A stretch of 20,194 nucleotides of DNA from the IMG/VR virus record IMGVR_UViG_3300025769_001128, positions 1-20,194 of that record; one strand, written 5' to 3'. This document shows, piece by piece, positions 1,267 through 15,966 of this stretch; position 1 is the first letter of the stretch, and each line of letters starts with the position of its first letter. The notes beneath the pieces were generated by a model. It worked only from the letters and a program-made list of their open reading frames with translations. It ran no database searches and was not told the DNA's origin. This stretch comes from a virus. Position numbers and translations under genes: made by a program.

Positions 1267-2403
1267 ATGATACGATTAGAATTTAAACGATTTTGGAAAC
1301 AGTTCAGGAAGCACACGACAGAAGTGCCAGTTATGCACAGGTTTGACCAAGCTGAATCGTTCACGTTCTTTTTCAAATCAAAAGAGGGCTGGGATTACTG
1401 GACACAAATTACTTTGCAAGAAATCTTTAATGTTGCAGACCTTGACGAAGTAGACCGACAATCAATCTTATCAAATTTTTACAATATTTACTGCGTTGAT
1501 AACTTAGTGGTTGAAGAACCGTTAATTGAGTTTACGCCACAAGAAGCAGAGCATAACGAGGACACAGAACCAGCGATTGATGTTTATACAAGTAGCAAGG
1601 CGGTTTCTGACGAAATCGAACCAGGCGAGGATGTTATTGACGAGTCTGATGATTATGCTAACTTCTACCTTCAAAATGTTAATCTCTGGAAAAAGAAAGT
1701 CACTAACAAAGTCAACGAAATACCAGTCGAGAAGATGGCTGCAGATATTACCACAAAGGCATTTGGCGAGTTTGTTCGTACAGTCCTTGGTGTTGTCAAT
1801 GCACGACCATTCCTTAGAGTCGTCAGGCGATTCGTTCGTGAAGGTGTTAAATCAGGTATGGAAGCAGTTGAGCAAGAATTAACTATGGATATTGGTATGA
1901 GTTCTGAACATTACTCAAAAGTAAAGGCTTTAGAAGACCAACAACTAAACGGTTATACAATCAACGGGCGAATGTGGTACGGAATTAAAGGAGCAACGAA
2001 AGAACTGCAAGTTCGGATCTTACGCCAAGTACAGGAAGATGTGCAAAATAAAGTTAGTCGAAAACAGATGACTAAAAACATTGAGAAAATCTTTGACGGT
2101 GTTGGTAAAGCACAGGCTGAGCGAATTGCAAGAACAGAAACAACTCGCTTCATTAACGAGGGTAAACTTACGAGTTATAAGAAAGCAGGGATTAAAGGTC
2201 ATAAAGCTTATGCAGCAGTAATGGATGATAGAACTTCCGACATTTGTCGCAGGTTACATAAAAAGTATTTCAAAAAGGGTGTTCCATTTGATGAACCGTT
2301 TGTTGATGATAAGACTGGTAAAAACTTTGATTATCCGCCTTCGCACGTAAATTGTCGTTGCGTCATAGAGTACCGATTACCCCCTAAAAACGAGCAATCA
2401 TAG
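1267..2403 (+). CDS. Phage Mu gpF-like head morphogenesis protein (minor head protein)
   Basis: 378 residues. The C-terminal half carries the Mu gpF / SPP1 gp7 signatures: AERIARTETTR at about 284-294, MDDRTSDICRRLH at about 319-331 and PPSHVNCRC at about 357-365. The last two supply the Cys/His residues conserved in this family. Members are minor capsid proteins that enter the procapsid with the portal and assist head assembly or DNA delivery. Residues 1-135 form an acidic, family-unrelated extension, rich in Glu/Asp from about 85 to 130. The gene starts one base after the preceding stop with no clear ribosome-binding site, which suggests translational coupling. Its last codon and TAG stop lie inside the 38-nt promoter repeat of the next gene. 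The portal and terminase genes normally found upstream are presumably outside the window. Confidence 0.88.
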   Translation: MIRLEFKRFWKQFRKHTTEVPVMHRFDQAESFTFFFKSKEGWDYWTQITLQEIFNVADLDEVDRQSILSNFYNIYCVDNLVVEEPLIEFTPQEAEHNEDTEPAIDVYTSSKAVSDEIEPGEDVIDESDDYANFYLQNVNLWKKKVTNKVNEIPVEKMAADITTKAFGEFVRTVLGVVNARPFLRVVRRFVREGVKSGMEAVEQELTMDIGMSSEHYSKVKALEDQQLNGYTINGRMWYGIKGATKELQVRILRQVQEDVQNKVSRKQMTKNIEKIFDGVGKAQAERIARTETTRFINEGKLTSYKKAGIKGHKAYAAVMDDRTSDICRRLHKKYFKKGVPFDEPFVDDKTGKNFDYPPSHVNCRCVIEYRLPPKNEQS

Positions 2404-2434
2404 AAATTATTTAAATATAAGTAAACTTATTTAT
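2397..2434 (+). repeat. 38-nt exact direct repeat, copy 1
   Basis: This copy is identical to 8109-8146 and contains a TATA box and palindrome. Its first seven bases (ATCATAG) are the end of the head morphogenesis gene including the TAG stop, which suggests this is the ancestral copy. Confidence 0.95.
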
Positions 2435-2440
2435 CTTTAT
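2397..2440 (+). promoter_or_regulatory. Archaeal-type promoter of the capsid operon with palindromic operator candidate
   Basis: A TTTAAATA box at 2410-2417, preceded by an A-rich stretch that could act as a BRE, is centred about 27 nt before ATG 2441. That is the archaeal TATA-to-start distance and implies a leaderless mRNA. Immediately downstream of the box, at 2417-2430, lies the perfect palindrome ATAAGT-AA-ACTTAT, well placed for a repressor to block initiation. Bases 2397-2434 recur exactly at 8109-8146. I see no bacterial -35/-10 pair. The promoter call rests on sequence and spacing only; the operator role is inference. Confidence 0.75.
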
Positions 2441-3376
2441 ATGTCTCAAACTCAAAAATCTACAGTCAATTCTAATCCAGGAAAGATTGAGCTTTTTCGT
2501 ACTTTAATGAAGACTTCTGACAGTAAATATTTAGCAGTTCTTAGTGATGATTCAATGGACCGAGATGGTGAAATTGTTTCACGTGAAGCATTGTTGAAGA
2601 TTGCTGGTAATGAGTCAGGAAAAACAGCTATTCTTTTGGACCACGAAAACAAGATTGAAAATATGGTTGGTGAATGGACTAATCAACGGATCGAAAACAT
2701 TGACGGACACACAGCTTTAATTGCAGAGCCTAAGTTTTACGAAAGTAACCCTAAAGCACAGATGATTAAGGGTATGCTTGATGAAGGCGCACACTGCGGG
2801 ATCAGTATTGGTGCTATGGTTAAAGGTTGTGAAGAACGTAAGATTGAAGAAAAATCAGTCAATGTATATACAGAATTAGAACTTCTTGAAGCAAGTTTTG
2901 TTGCTATCCCGAGCAATAGGCACGGAATGGCTATGGCACTTGCTAAGAAATTTAGTAAAAAACTTAACGAGGAAACTCAAAAAATGGCAGAAGAAAAAAC
3001 ATACTCTGAAAAAGAGTTTAACGAAATTCTGGACCAGAACGAAGCTTTGAAAGCAGAAGTTGCACAATTGCAAAAAGACGCAGAAGAAGCACCAGCAGAA
3101 CCTGAAGCGGTTGCTGAAGAAGCTCCAGCAGTTGAAGAAAAACCAGCTGAAGAAGAATCTGAAGCACCAGCAGAAGAAGAAGCTGAAAAGTCTGGTGAAT
3201 CTGAACTTGCAAAACAAGTAGCAGACTTACAGAAACAAAATGCTCTAATGGTTGAGCAGATGGAAAAACTTCAAGGCAGTCCTGTACTTAAAGCACAGCA
3301 CGATTCCCCAGAGGGCAATCAACTTGAAGCAAACAACGAAGTAAACAAAGGTAAACTTCCTATTTTAATAAGGTAA
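2441..3376 (+). CDS. HK97-type prohead protease fused to an acidic scaffold-like tail
   Basis: 311 residues. Residues about 20-165 match the U35/S78 prohead protease family: His68 in LLDHENK, Ser122 in CGISIGAM, and Glu150 in the ELLEASFVAIPSN motif form the expected His-Ser-Glu set. The protease cleaves scaffold and capsid N-termini so that the procapsid can expand and mature. Residues about 180-290 are a Glu/Ala/Pro-rich acidic segment flanked by heptad-like coils, the composition of an internal scaffold, so the two functions are probably carried on one chain. No separate scaffold gene is seen before the capsid gene. The start is the first ATG after the archaeal-type promoter and has no ribosome-binding site, fitting a leaderless message. 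Nine bases separate it from the capsid gene. Confidence 0.9.
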   Translation: MSQTQKSTVNSNPGKIELFRTLMKTSDSKYLAVLSDDSMDRDGEIVSREALLKIAGNESGKTAILLDHENKIENMVGEWTNQRIENIDGHTALIAEPKFYESNPKAQMIKGMLDEGAHCGISIGAMVKGCEERKIEEKSVNVYTELELLEASFVAIPSNRHGMAMALAKKFSKKLNEETQKMAEEKTYSEKEFNEILDQNEALKAEVAQLQKDAEEAPAEPEAVAEEAPAVEEKPAEEESEAPAEEEAEKSGESELAKQVADLQKQNALMVEQMEKLQGSPVLKAQHDSPEGNQLEANNEVNKGKLPILIR

Positions 3377-3384
3377 AAAGAAAA

Positions 3385-4440
3385 ATGAATAAAGCAGTAT
3401 TTAGTGAAAGACCAGCAGGATTTTCTGTTGAAAAAGCTTTTAACGATTCATTCGGTGACTTCCAAGTTGGCGAAGATGACTTAGGTGGAATCAGTCGTGA
3501 ATACTACAACCCGTTCTCACGAGTTGATAAGCGACAAGAAATTGCAGGTCAAATGCAGAAAGTATCAATCGATACTCAAACAGGCGGTGCAGGTACAGCA
3601 GGAACAGCTCTTGTTCCAGTATATGTAGACCCAAGTATTGTTGACCGAACAGTACGTGAAACTCCTCTTCGTAATATGTTACCACGACGAGCAGTTAAAG
3701 GTTTAACTTACGACTACGTACCTCTTACGAGCAAAGGCGGAGCAGTATGGGCAGCAGAGAATGCTTCAATTGCAGACCAAGTTGACGTTTACGACCGAGT
3801 AAGTGTTGGAATTAAATTCCTATACGCAAAAGGTAGAGTTAGCGGTCCAGCAGTAGCAGCTATGCGAGGATTTGTAGATCCAAGCCAACTTGATCTAAGT
3901 GTTAAAACTACTTCTATTATGGAAGCAGAAGAAGATATGATTATCAATGGTGATAAGGACACAAACCCAGAAGAACCAGACGGATTAATTCAATCAATTG
4001 CAACTAACACAACTGACTTGTCAAGCGGTTACCCAACTCTTTCAGGTATTAGAGCAGAGTTTGCAACGTCTTACAACAACAACGGAATGATTAATGTAGC
4101 GGTAACTGATGCAAGTACTCACAACTACGTTAAAGGATTGTTATTGAACATCCAGCGACAAGTGACTAACCCATCAGAAGCAGTATTAGGATTCGGTATC
4201 CCAGACGCTTTCGAGTTTGACGGTGTATTATTTATTAGAGATAAATTTATGCCAACAACTGCAAACAGTAAACGGATCTTATTCCTTGATACTAGATATA
4301 CATTTATGGCAGTCCTACAAGATTTGACGTACGAAGAAAAAGCTAGTGAAAACGATTCATACGTATATATGTTAAAAGAATACTTAACATTTGTATTGAC
4401 TCACGAAGCAGCTTGTACGCAAATGTACGGTATTGCTTAG
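3385..4440 (+). CDS. Major capsid protein, HK97 fold
   Basis: 351 residues. It shows HK97-family landmarks: a Gly/Ala-rich segment leading into TALVPVYV (about 74-81), the RETPLRNMLPRRAVKG stretch (about 91-106), VWAAENASIADQ (about 121-132) and the E-loop/A-domain hallmark EAEEDMIINGDKDTN..P.GL around 180-201. About 415 copies would be expected for a T=7 shell, but triangulation number cannot be read from the sequence. The N-terminal 60-65 residues are polar and may be removed by the upstream protease; no cleavage site can be assigned with confidence. A long delta-domain scaffold is absent, consistent with scaffolding being fused to the protease. It follows the protease and precedes two small beta proteins, the classic order protease-capsid-decoration. 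Confidence 0.93.
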   Translation: MNKAVFSERPAGFSVEKAFNDSFGDFQVGEDDLGGISREYYNPFSRVDKRQEIAGQMQKVSIDTQTGGAGTAGTALVPVYVDPSIVDRTVRETPLRNMLPRRAVKGLTYDYVPLTSKGGAVWAAENASIADQVDVYDRVSVGIKFLYAKGRVSGPAVAAMRGFVDPSQLDLSVKTTSIMEAEEDMIINGDKDTNPEEPDGLIQSIATNTTDLSSGYPTLSGIRAEFATSYNNNGMINVAVTDASTHNYVKGLLLNIQRQVTNPSEAVLGFGIPDAFEFDGVLFIRDKFMPTTANSKRILFLDTRYTFMAVLQDLTYEEKASENDSYVYMLKEYLTFVLTHEAACTQMYGIA

Positions 4441-7584: not shown

Positions 7585-7615
7585 TTTTATAAATAATATT
7601 AGTATATATCATACT
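7585..7615 (+). promoter_or_regulatory. Archaeal-type promoter of the HNH gene
   Basis: TTTATAAATA at 7586-7595 is centred about 25-26 nt before ATG 7616, again giving a leaderless transcript. A small inverted repeat (AGTAT-ATATC-ATACT, 7601-7615) lies between the box and the start. This sequence is unrelated to the promoters at 2397 and 8109 apart from the box and its spacing, so it is independent support for archaeal-type initiation. Confidence 0.65.
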
Positions 7616-8104
7616 ATGGTTATATGGGAAGCACTTTGGGATGATTATTTGATTAGTGATGATTGCCAAGTAAAAAGTTTGAAATTTGGCAAAGAACGAA
7701 TATTAAAATCTGATATTGATACCAGAGGGTATAAATACGTTGTTTTGTATAAAAACGGAAAAGGGAAACATTACACTATTCATAGATTAATGGCTATTGC
7801 GTTTATTCCTAATCCAGACAATAAACGCTGTGTTAATCATAAAGATGGCAACAAGTTAAATAATTTAATTGATAATCTTGAATGGTGTACTCATTCAGAG
7901 AATAATAAACACGCATTTACAATTGGTTTAAAATGCCAAAAACTTGAAAATGCTCCTAATGTAAAACTTTGTGAAGCGGATGTTGCAAGAATTAGACATC
8001 TACACAAAACTGGTAAATATTTTCATAGGGAACTCGCTGTTATGTTTGATGTTCAAAGAACAGTTATTACAAATATAGTGAACTACAAAACTTGGTGTTT
8101 TTAA
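7616..8104 (+). CDS. HNH homing endonuclease (NUMOD4-HNH with C-terminal HTH)
   Basis: 162 residues. Residues about 3-50 fit the NUMOD4 DNA-binding module (W..YLISDDCQVKSL and the RGYKYVVLYKNGK hairpin). Residues about 54-98 form the HNH nuclease core: IHRLMAIAFIPN, then VNHKDGNKLNNLIDNLEW and CTHSENNKHA, with His75, Asn87 and His93 as the expected catalytic or metal positions. Residues about 115-160 resemble a helix-turn-helix (VARIRHLHKTGKYFHRELAVMF..QRTVITNIV). Such free-standing enzymes nick or cut intron-less or allelic sites and spread by repair, and they have no virion function. The gene sits alone between two neck/tail genes, has its own promoter, and is followed by a copied promoter that restarts the operon. 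All domains appear intact. Confidence 0.87.
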   Translation: MVIWEALWDDYLISDDCQVKSLKFGKERILKSDIDTRGYKYVVLYKNGKGKHYTIHRLMAIAFIPNPDNKRCVNHKDGNKLNNLIDNLEWCTHSENNKHAFTIGLKCQKLENAPNVKLCEADVARIRHLHKTGKYFHRELAVMFDVQRTVITNIVNYKTWCF

Positions 8105-8108
8105 CACT

Positions 8109-8146
8109 ATCATAGAAATTATTTAAATATAAGTAAACTTATTTAT
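8109..8146 (+). repeat. 38-nt exact direct repeat, copy 2
   Basis: Identical to 2397-2434. Here the leading ATCATAG is non-coding and starts four bases after the HNH stop, whereas in copy 1 it encodes the end of a gene. Confidence 0.95.
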
Positions 8147-8151: not shown

Positions 8152-8172
8152 ATGAGACAAGTGTCTCTTTAA
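8152..8172 (+). promoter_or_regulatory. Six-codon leader frame overlapping a perfect inverted repeat
   Basis: ATG at the predicted transcription start opens MRQVSL then TAA. The same bases contain the perfect inverted repeat GAGACA-AG-TGTCTC (8154-8167). It may be a translated leader, a 5'-end hairpin, an operator, or a relic of a former start. The main gene begins 11 bases later at GTG 8183. Confidence 0.35.
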
Positions 8173-8182
8173 AATCCAAGCG

Positions 8183-8890
8183 GTGATTAAAATTTATTTT
8201 AGCGAACCAGAAGAAGTTATATACAATTTTCTCAGAGCGAGAGTTGACGAAGTAACACGTACTGGTTTATCTAATCGAATGACAGCGGATACACAAAACT
8301 TCTCAGGTAACGCATCAGACACAGAATTTACATTAACAGAACAACCAGAGTGTATTGTTTCGGTTGTTGTTGATGGCGTAACACAAATTCCTTATACAGC
8401 ATATAATATTGACTTAGACAACAAAAAGATTAAGTTTGCAACAGCTCCAGCGAGTGGCACAGATAATATTGTTGTTAGTTTTAAGAAAGGTTCTAACTGG
8501 ATATATCCAGATTTACCACGAGTTGATTTAAGTAAAAACAACTTCCCACGTATTGGTAGTTGGCAAATATCAAAAACAAGTGGCTTTGAAGAAGTAGGCG
8601 ACCAATCAAACACTTACGATACAGTAGTGTTTCAGATTGATGTATTATCGTATAAAGACTTACTTTGTGAGGTTAGCGGTGAATCGTTTAGTGGTCCTGA
8701 TGTAACTCGATACTTAGCACGACAAGTTGAGAACGCTTTCAAGGATTATGCAAAGACTGACTTAATTGGCGTTTTGTATGATTTCCAAATACTGGATAAC
8801 TCACCAGCACCTTATCAATCACCTTTAAACATATTTCAGAGAATTATGCAGATTAGATTTAATATGCGTAACTTCAGGAGATTACCATAA
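8183..8890 (+). CDS. Tail terminator / tail-completion candidate with inserted beta module
   Basis: 235 residues. The outer parts (about 1-30 and 105-235) show the alpha/beta pattern of tail-terminator proteins: an initial helix-rich start (EEVIYNFLRARVDEVT), then strands and a late helix-strand pair (YLARQVENAFKDYAKTDLIGVLYDFQI, then IMQIRFNMRN). Residues about 38-102 are an inserted Gly/Asp/Thr-rich beta module similar to segments in the connector and hub proteins. The start is GTG: the upstream frame is closed by a TGA at 8153-8155 and offers no ATG. Position after the gp10-like gene and before the tail tube supports the role. The stop shares a base with the next ATG. The function is inferred rather than recognised by a catalytic motif. 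Confidence 0.55.
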   Translation: MIKIYFSEPEEVIYNFLRARVDEVTRTGLSNRMTADTQNFSGNASDTEFTLTEQPECIVSVVVDGVTQIPYTAYNIDLDNKKIKFATAPASGTDNIVVSFKKGSNWIYPDLPRVDLSKNNFPRIGSWQISKTSGFEEVGDQSNTYDTVVFQIDVLSYKDLLCEVSGESFSGPDVTRYLARQVENAFKDYAKTDLIGVLYDFQILDNSPAPYQSPLNIFQRIMQIRFNMRNFRRLP

Positions 8891-13845: not shown

Positions 13846-15966
13846 ATGGTACAAACATATAGTTTCACAATAGCTGGAACAGAAGTAGGAATTGCAGATG
13901 GTACAGGACCAAATTATGTTTTAATTGGCACTTCCATTACTTTAGCACGAAATAATAACACTGGTAATATTGCACGTGTACTTGTTGCAGATTCTATTAC
14001 AGATACTGTCACACCAGCTTCTGGTGATGAAGTAATTATTAAACGAGCAGATGCAAGTCAAGGTGGTGGTTCTTTATTACTTGAATCAGGTGATAAATTA
14101 TTACTTGAATCAGGTGATGAAATATTATTGGATTTTGAATTTGATTATGATATTGTATTTAAAGGCAATATAAAAAAGATAGAAGACACACCAAACAATA
14201 CAAAAGAAATTATTGTTTTAGATCCACTTCAAAAACTAAAATACGATTTGTTTGTAACAAGCTATGACAAAAATATAGATCCAGAAGCAGGAAAACTAAG
14301 TGCTATATTTTCAGATATTGCAACAAATGGGGGTTTTACTCCGTCAGTTGTAGATAGCGGAACGCTAAATGCAGTTGATAAATTTGTGTCTAATAATCAA
14401 TCACGATTAAACAGGATGCACTTAATTCAAAAATTGTTAAATTGGATATTCTATTACGATTATAATGACGATGTTATACGTTTAGAGCCACAAGGTTATG
14501 AAGCATACGGTACAGTGTTAAATGTTGGTTCACAAATTAAAAATATACCTAACTGGGAAGAAGACATTGAAGGTATGCGAAATAAAATAACAATTGATGG
14601 TGCGTTACAACGTGATACCCGAACAGATTCTTTTGACGGTGACGGCAACGAAACTGAATTTGAATTAACTTATACACCAGTATCGATTGAAACTAAAATA
14701 AGCGGTACGCTTCAAGTACTAGGAAAACTTGGTTCAACAACTGGGTATGATTATACGCTTGATACATTACGTAAAACAATTATTTTTGAAGTAGCACCAC
14801 CAAGCGGAACTAATAATGTTGTTGCTACATATTTAACTGATATTCCAACACCAGTAACTGGATTAAGTCAGACAAGTATTGATAGGTACGGATTAACACA
14901 AGCAGAGTTATTTAAGTTTCCTGATGTATTAACAGTAGCTGATGCAGAAATACGTTTACAGCAAATTTTAGAAGTATTAGAATTTGGTGAAATTAGTACA
15001 ACAATTATGACTGATGAATACGGTATAACTCTTGGTAATAAAATAACAATTGCAGACCCAATAAGAACTGCACGTGATGGTGATTATGTAGTTACTGAGA
15101 AAATAATTAACTACGGTGCAGAATATGATGTCTTAAAGATTGGTACGCCACGTGTTGATATAAGAGGACTTATTGAAACGATTGATGAACGATTAAAAGC
15201 ACTCGAAGGTACTGACCAAACTTTGACATCTATATTAAGAAGTTTAATTGCATCAGTTAGAACAAATGTAACATTTGCACGACAAGGGCTTAAACTTGAA
15301 CACAGAGCTATGGGCGATTCGTTAATACTTGGACACGATACACTTGGATATTTACGGACAGGGCTTGATAAGGAAATTGATTGCAGCGGTAATTCTAATC
15401 ACGGTACGTGGGCAGGAACTAATGTTTCAACTGGTGCTCAATTTACTGCGATGACTGATACTGATGACTTCCCGCTCAATAGACTTGCGTGTGGTACGTT
15501 TAATGGAACGGATCATAATATAACAGCAACAGTAAGCGAGGCAGGGATTGTTGCGTGTAGTTTCTTTATGTCGGTTGATACTAACTCACGTGATGTTATG
15601 GACTTAGGCAACAGCAATATTATATCAGTTGATGGTTCAGGCAATATATCGACTTCAGGCTTAACAGGTGTCACAACAACAGAAACAGCAGTCACTGGTG
15701 GAACTCACGTATATATGGAGTTCGATTCAATCACACTTACAAACCCGACAATCGGTTTTTCAAGTACATACTTTGACGGTAACCTTGATGAAGTAATGTT
15801 TTTTGATACAACACTCTCAACAACTGTGCAGCAAGAACTACGTGATAATCAATTTGGAAGCACAAGCACTAATTATACTAACTGCAAACTTTGGTACTCT
15901 TTCGATAATCCGAAGCTTGGTGATAGACGAGGAAGTTATGTCGAGGACTTTGATACAACATATTAG
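13846..15966 (+). CDS. Tail hub / tip protein with LLLESGD repeats and C-terminal LamG-like domain
   Basis: 706 residues. Residues about 1-65 form a beta domain. Residues 77-96 are a short tandem repeat (LLLESGDK, LLLESGDE, ILLD), a motif common in phage tail-tip proteins. Residues about 100-250 and 345-440 resemble the gp27-like hub: long strands and the region IRLEPQGYEAYGTV. Residues about 260-331 are the same beta module as in the connector and terminator. Residues 440-480 are a helical linker. Residues about 500-700 are LamG-like (CSGNSNHGTWAG, CGTFNGTDH, FDGNLDEVMFFDT) and would bind a host surface ligand. The hub caps the tail tube and anchors fibres. The fusion puts the adhesin directly on the hub. 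Confidence 0.7.
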   Translation: MVQTYSFTIAGTEVGIADGTGPNYVLIGTSITLARNNNTGNIARVLVADSITDTVTPASGDEVIIKRADASQGGGSLLLESGDKLLLESGDEILLDFEFDYDIVFKGNIKKIEDTPNNTKEIIVLDPLQKLKYDLFVTSYDKNIDPEAGKLSAIFSDIATNGGFTPSVVDSGTLNAVDKFVSNNQSRLNRMHLIQKLLNWIFYYDYNDDVIRLEPQGYEAYGTVLNVGSQIKNIPNWEEDIEGMRNKITIDGALQRDTRTDSFDGDGNETEFELTYTPVSIETKISGTLQVLGKLGSTTGYDYTLDTLRKTIIFEVAPPSGTNNVVATYLTDIPTPVTGLSQTSIDRYGLTQAELFKFPDVLTVADAEIRLQQILEVLEFGEISTTIMTDEYGITLGNKITIADPIRTARDGDYVVTEKIINYGAEYDVLKIGTPRVDIRGLIETIDERLKALEGTDQTLTSILRSLIASVRTNVTFARQGLKLEHRAMGDSLILGHDTLGYLRTGLDKEIDCSGNSNHGTWAGTNVSTGAQFTAMTDTDDFPLNRLACGTFNGTDHNITATVSEAGIVACSFFMSVDTNSRDVMDLGNSNIISVDGSGNISTSGLTGVTTTETAVTGGTHVYMEFDSITLTNPTIGFSSTYFDGNLDEVMFFDTTLSTTVQQELRDNQFGSTSTNYTNCKLWYSFDNPKLGDRRGSYVEDFDTTY
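14074..14118 (+). repeat. 24-nt tandem repeat encoding LLLESGD units
   Basis: Bases 14074-14094 recur exactly at 14098-14118 (21-nt identity, 24-nt period). They encode two LLLESGD units, with a diverged third unit following. This suggests recent duplication or conversion within the hub gene. Confidence 0.85.

Follow-up and report, generated by a model that had tools for sequence, protein, structure and literature searches.

In this study, a 20,194-base virus fragment (the window, which is the entire record) was found to carry, in front of its head operon, a TATA promoter that is one of three virus-specific copies. The reading that we favour, with a probability of about 0.77, is that this promoter (P2, the protease promoter) is the core promoter for the head operon of a probable archaeal tailed virus and belongs to a late regulon with the promoters of the portal gene (P1) and of a neck gene (P3). 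On the plus strand of the window, TTTAAATA occurs at two sites only, 2410 and 8122, and both lie within the longest exact direct repeat of the window, the 38-bp block at 2397-2434 and 8109-8146; thus, the box and its context are far above chance. A third copy of 35 bp lies directly 5' of the portal gene in the contig L044 (IMGVR_UViG_3300025889_002090), which shares 99.97% identity with the window across 10.8 kb and reaches further upstream, and P1 of the window virus was read from this near-identical contig. The box-to-ATG distance is 28 nt at the portal gene, 27 nt at the protease gene and 26 nt at P3, where the ATG is that of a six-codon ORF. The original prediction had placed the box at 2410-2417, centred 27 nt from ATG 2441 and ahead of the capsid genes; these positions were confirmed, and the downstream genes encode a prohead protease (PF04586) followed by an HK97-type major capsid protein (PF05065). 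Its promoter part was upheld, and its second part, a repressor operator formed by a palindrome, was not. Moreover, it had not noticed that the whole block stands at three promoters, nor that the likeness within a virus lies upstream, not downstream, of the box. The coordinates are collected in Table 1. Elsewhere in the window, a 21-bp direct repeat with copies 24 bp apart (14074-14118) lies within a 706-aa ORF and encodes a repeated LLLESGD motif.

Table 1. Features of the window and of related contigs (contig named where it is not the window).
Feature	Position	Strand	Remark
Preceding ORF, Mu-F-like head protein	1267-2403		upstream of P2
P2 promoter block ATCATAGAAATTATTTAAATATAAGTAAACTTATTTAT	2397-2434	+	exact direct repeat with 8109-8146; precedes protease-capsid operon
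P2 virus-specific element GAAATTA	2403-2409	+	adjoins TATA box, BRE position; overlaps final base of MuF stop codon
P2 TATA box TTTAAATA	2410-2417	+	centre 27 nt before ATG 2441
Inverted repeat ATAAGT-AA-ACTTAT	2417-2430		chance-level; private to window virus
Prohead protease gene, first of operon	2441-3376	+	PF04586; predicted leaderless, no Shine-Dalgarno between box and ATG
Major capsid protein gene, HK97-type	3385-4440	+	PF05065, PF17236
HNH endonuclease gene, NUMOD4 + HNH_3	7616-8104	+	inserted between upstream gene and P3
P3 promoter, other exact 38-bp copy	8109-8146	+	element 8115-8121, TATA box 8122-8129
P3 leader hairpin 1, GAGAC-AAGT-GTCTC	8154-8167	+	stem begins 29 nt past box centre, about the predicted transcription start
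P3 leader hairpin 2, CC-AAGC-GG	8176-8183	+	adjoins neck gene start
P3-driven gene, neck/tail-completion-like, 235 aa	8183-8890	+	ORF; homologues by tblastn
Two-hairpin leaders	window 8154-8183; L086 1948-1995; L071 6052-6099 (-); L070 11789-11834; L091 18133-18183; L108 2961-3005		
Winged-helix ORF, examples	L044 14169-14351 (-); L080 6724-6930; L087 8142-8366		

A capsid search of viral contigs yielded 41 loci; the comparison covered 28 dereplicated viruses, most of them represented by genome fragments. In nearly all 41 loci a box of the form TTTAAATA, TTTATATA or TATAAATA stands 5' of the protease gene, and TATA boxes were found at the P1, P2 and P3 positions across the 28 viruses. Many of the fuller contigs have, as their longest or near-longest intergenic direct repeat, another TATA promoter whose sequence is particular to that virus and which precedes the portal gene, the protease gene or the orthologue of the gene at 8183. 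Archaeal TATA boxes are located approximately 26-27 nt upstream of the transcription start, and the distance from box centre to ATG agrees with this value, with a median of 27 nt and 87% of the 46 P1/P2 promoters in the range 25-30. An archaeal-type promoter, predicted from its architecture to be leaderless or nearly so, is therefore well supported by the comparison, as the original prediction had proposed. Since a ribosome site precedes the ATG in some promoters with longer spacing, near-leaderless is the safer term for these.

The likeness between the promoters of one virus is found directly upstream of the box. When the promoters were aligned at the box (with registers or starts set by hand in five viruses, G005, G009, G017, G019 and G020), P1 and P2 within one virus shared 89% of the 10 nt upstream of it, versus 52% between viruses (20 viruses, permutation p=5e-5), and the corresponding values for P2 and P3 were 86% and 46% (10 viruses, permutation p=5e-5). 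The likeness is concentrated at positions -7 to -1, at which P1 and P2 share 95-100% identity within a virus (20 viruses) and mostly about 40% between viruses. The control stretch from -18 to -11 had no excess (31% within versus 30% between), so the likeness is not explained by neighbourhood or composition. The excess within a virus was weaker in the spacer than in the upstream element. Furthermore, in 19 of the 20 viruses the virus's own P1/P2 pair was more alike than the orthologous promoters of that virus and its nearest relative by capsid (Wilcoxon p=9e-5). Overall, the pattern looks like that of a late regulon with a promoter signature that evolves in concert.

It might be argued that this identity only reflects the preference of each virus's own host TBP and TFB, with no factor specific to late genes. 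The conserved positions are indeed the positions of TFB contact, and G at -6, which strong archaeal BREs favour (PMC11065993), is present in many of the elements here. The two longest genomes, G012 and G020, were used to compare early and late promoters. In G012 (41.3 kb), TAGTA-TTTAAATA occurs at exactly 4 sites, and in G020, GTGGTG-TTTAAATA also occurs at exactly 4 sites; all are on the late strand, each 5' of structural genes. The boxes of the opposite, early strand, 5' of replication genes, instead combine GAAAG-type elements with TTTATA(A/T)A, so that a different upstream element and box are used in the same genome and the same host. Two promoter classes served by one host argue against a mere BRE preference of the host, and this explanation is considered unlikely. 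The late timing of P1-P3, for its part, is inferred from the genes that they drive.

It is quite unlikely that the copies are alike through recent copying or gene conversion between repeats, or through transport by an HNH element, rather than through a shared reader. Such an origin would suit the near-identity over 35-45 bp in the window virus and in G002, as well as the HNH gene that adjoins P3. However, copying of random length does not predict that the common stretch should stop approximately 7-10 nt upstream of the box in 20 viruses, with background identity beyond. Moreover, an orthologous P3 precedes the neck gene in relatives whether or not an HNH gene lies between, and the finding of P3 in relatives with no HNH gene there rules out transport of the repeat by the HNH element.

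A further explanation, put forward in the original prediction, is that the palindrome between box and start (ATAAGTAAACTTAT) is an operator at which a dimeric repressor of the virus or host stops initiation of the late genes. The palindrome is present at 2417-2430, with one base common to the box, and has the same sequence in all three copies; in addition, ORFs of dimeric DNA-binding type were found in the lineage. The copies also agree over the spacer at 18-19/20 positions in the window virus and in G002, unlike most relatives, so an extra constraint or recent copying is possible in these two viruses, but the palindrome is not singled out by it. Against the operator, shuffling produced an inverted repeat with 6-bp arms in 15% of trials with the 24-nt spacer and in 51% of trials with the 37-nt intergenic region, and several dozen inverted repeats with such arms exist within the window. 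Over 58 spacers, the best inverted-repeat arm averaged 3.83 versus 3.73 expected, which is no enrichment. The palindrome was found in none of the homologous promoters of relatives, including those with 83% capsid identity, and this absence is what the original prediction itself had named as refuting it. A second copy does occur in the window, at 8129-8142, but it recurs because the whole 38-bp block recurs, and its conservation is indistinguishable from that of the entire block. A role as operator is thus very unlikely.

The archaeal host is probable on the basis of the promoter architecture. No relative was found among the GTDB genomes scanned with the capsid and portal alignments, and the isolated phages gave no capsid match. 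Terminase and DNA polymerase of the relatives resemble bacteriophage proteins. It is nevertheless highly improbable that this is a virus of bacteria with an AT-rich motif that is not a TATA box, as the 42% identity of the G012 terminase to Bacteroides and flavobacterial phage terminases might suggest: TTTAAATA or TTTATATA lies 25-30 nt from the ATG in 87% of 46 promoters, the operons contain AGGT(G/A)A-type ribosome sites, the early regions have canonical archaeal GAAAG-TTTATA boxes, and the top-ranked isolates for the portal (by rank) are haloarchaeal tailed viruses. As for the content of G012 (L086-L088, 41,312 bp), it encodes PolB, an ATP-dependent ligase, thymidylate synthase-like and asparagine-synthase-like proteins, and a 64-aa protein that is similar to ribbon-helix-helix factors and has no Pfam match. 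Its first and last ORFs encode overlapping parts of a similar protein; therefore, G012 may be a near-complete, circularly permuted genome.

The late regulon model may be described as follows. P2 would be the core promoter that drives the head operon; the virus, uncultured and tailed, would most likely be archaeal. The host TBP would bind TTTAAATA, and TFB would touch the 7 nt directly upstream. RNA polymerase would initiate approximately 24-28 nt downstream, at or just 5' of ATG 2441. P1, P2 and P3 would fire together, and the box-abutting element with TTTAAATA would mark the late class, whereas the early genes would use the canonical GAAAG-TTTATA(A/T)A. One sequence-specific factor reading all copies would keep them alike within a virus while they drift between viruses, and a small conserved winged-helix protein encoded 5' of the portal gene may be this factor.

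The candidate is a protein of 61-88 aa that forms one alignable family and is encoded a few genes 5' of the portal gene in every contig reaching far enough. AlphaFold predicted an H-H-H-E-E fold with a pLDDT of 94, a confident winged helix. Its neighbours in Foldseek included the archaeal regulators AbfR2, 3r0a and TA0346 and the virus-plasmid protein Stf76, all with E >= 0.001, and a comparison with Pfam gave no clear family. The distances of the late element and of the winged-helix protein correlated in a plain Mantel test (r 0.26), but correction for capsid distance left nothing of this covariation (partial r 0.03, p 0.41). This result weighs against the model, as do the phage-like terminase and DNA polymerase and the lack of a virus-encoded TFB homologue in 26 records. 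Also, the repeats of halovirus HF2 work in the absence of viral factors (PMC8707807), and a dedicated factor may therefore be unnecessary.

The transcript of P3 has a feature of its own. The start of the neck gene, from the alignment of starts with the relative G001, may be GTG 8183 or ATT 8194 (ATG in G001), and the six-codon ORF opens ahead of it at 8152. At the predicted 5' end of the transcript, approximately 16 related viruses carry a leader of two tandem hairpins with CAAGN(N)G loops. The stem of hairpin 1 varies between viruses and its loop is constant (AAGN or AAGNN, with a C-G closing pair except in one); hairpin 2 is shorter and lies approximately 22 nt downstream, beside the start codon. 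In all 15 viruses in which a box could be paired with a hairpin, the stem of hairpin 1 begins 24-31 nt past the box centre. All five pairs of hairpin 1 vary on both sides. The covariation among 13 sequences was 0.949 for hairpin 1 (0.224 shuffled, <=0.21 slid) and 0.487 for hairpin 2 (0.202 shuffled). The hairpins were selected by eye from their loop motif, and this favours pairing from the outset; such selection alone would nevertheless hardly yield this many pair types or the outcome of the sliding control. A covariance model built from 16 leaders had these leaders as its 16 best matches in 451 kb, which follows from its construction; the informative point is that nothing comparable occurred elsewhere. 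Rfam gave no family match in the window, leader included. An alignment of more neck proteins was too divergent for a scan of the collection, and scans with single proteins returned the same viruses only. The simplest reading is that the hairpins act in cis as the leader of a single operon; they may be a translational operator or may protect the 5' end.

The HNH gene at this junction has its own box, TATAAATA at 7588-7595, 24 nt from its ATG. HNH genes or remnants recur between the upstream gene and the P3-driven gene (window 7616-8104, L089 8776-9306, L106 after 3016), and the junction looks like an insertion hotspot for such genes.

A bolder proposal joins two parts, and as a whole we hold it to be possible but somewhat doubtful: that the BRE position is read by a dedicated factor that evolves fast, either a viral winged-helix factor or a protein that modifies TFB, and that gives each virus its own late-promoter code, and that the hairpins in the P3 transcript are a new, conserved RNA element which is read by a viral protein or the ribosome and controls the neck gene. 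The leader RNA is unreported in the open-access literature, where absence is weak evidence. To our knowledge, temporal control in archaeal tailed viruses has been described for only a few haloviruses. Here, the sequences by themselves reveal a putative late regulon in dozens of uncultured viruses; its signature, the 7 nt next to the TATA box, is testable, and a candidate reader gene lies nearby. A promoter set that is uniform within a genome and drifts between genomes may also serve as a natural experiment on the evolution of archaeal promoter recognition.

Late promoters of phages can be read by a phage-specific factor, as in the T7-type polymerase promoters, whose copies are near-identical and whose consensus differs between related phages. 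The present promoters are similar in that several near-identical copies per genome stand before late genes; unlike them, the core here is a TATA promoter of archaeal type that the host polymerase would use, and no viral polymerase or TFB was found. In rudiviruses and fuselloviruses (SIRV2, SSVs), early genes are marked by genome-specific regulatory sequences (PMC11065993). There, as here, a genome-specific sequence around a common BRE/TATA core marks a temporal class and the flanks vary; however, those sequences mark early anti-defence genes in Sulfolobales viruses, whereas structural operons of tailed viruses are concerned here and the virus-specific part is the element abutting the box. The closest known system is that of HF2, an archaeal tailed virus whose intergenic repeats (class I of 58 bp, class II of 29 bp) had promoter activity in reporter assays, one class serving early-middle genes and the other morphogenesis genes (PMC8707807). 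Both systems have several near-identical intergenic repeats with BRE and TATA at the archaeal distance (three copies in the window virus, and own copies in its relatives), the same gene positions in relatives and separate promoter classes for different gene sets. The present case differs in its other genes, in its AT-rich uncultured lineage, in being known from sequence, and in the repeat itself, which relatives of HF2 conserve and which here agrees within genomes (89% in the upstream element) and differs between them (52%). The promoters described here thus work like the repeats of HF2, yet are a variant of them.
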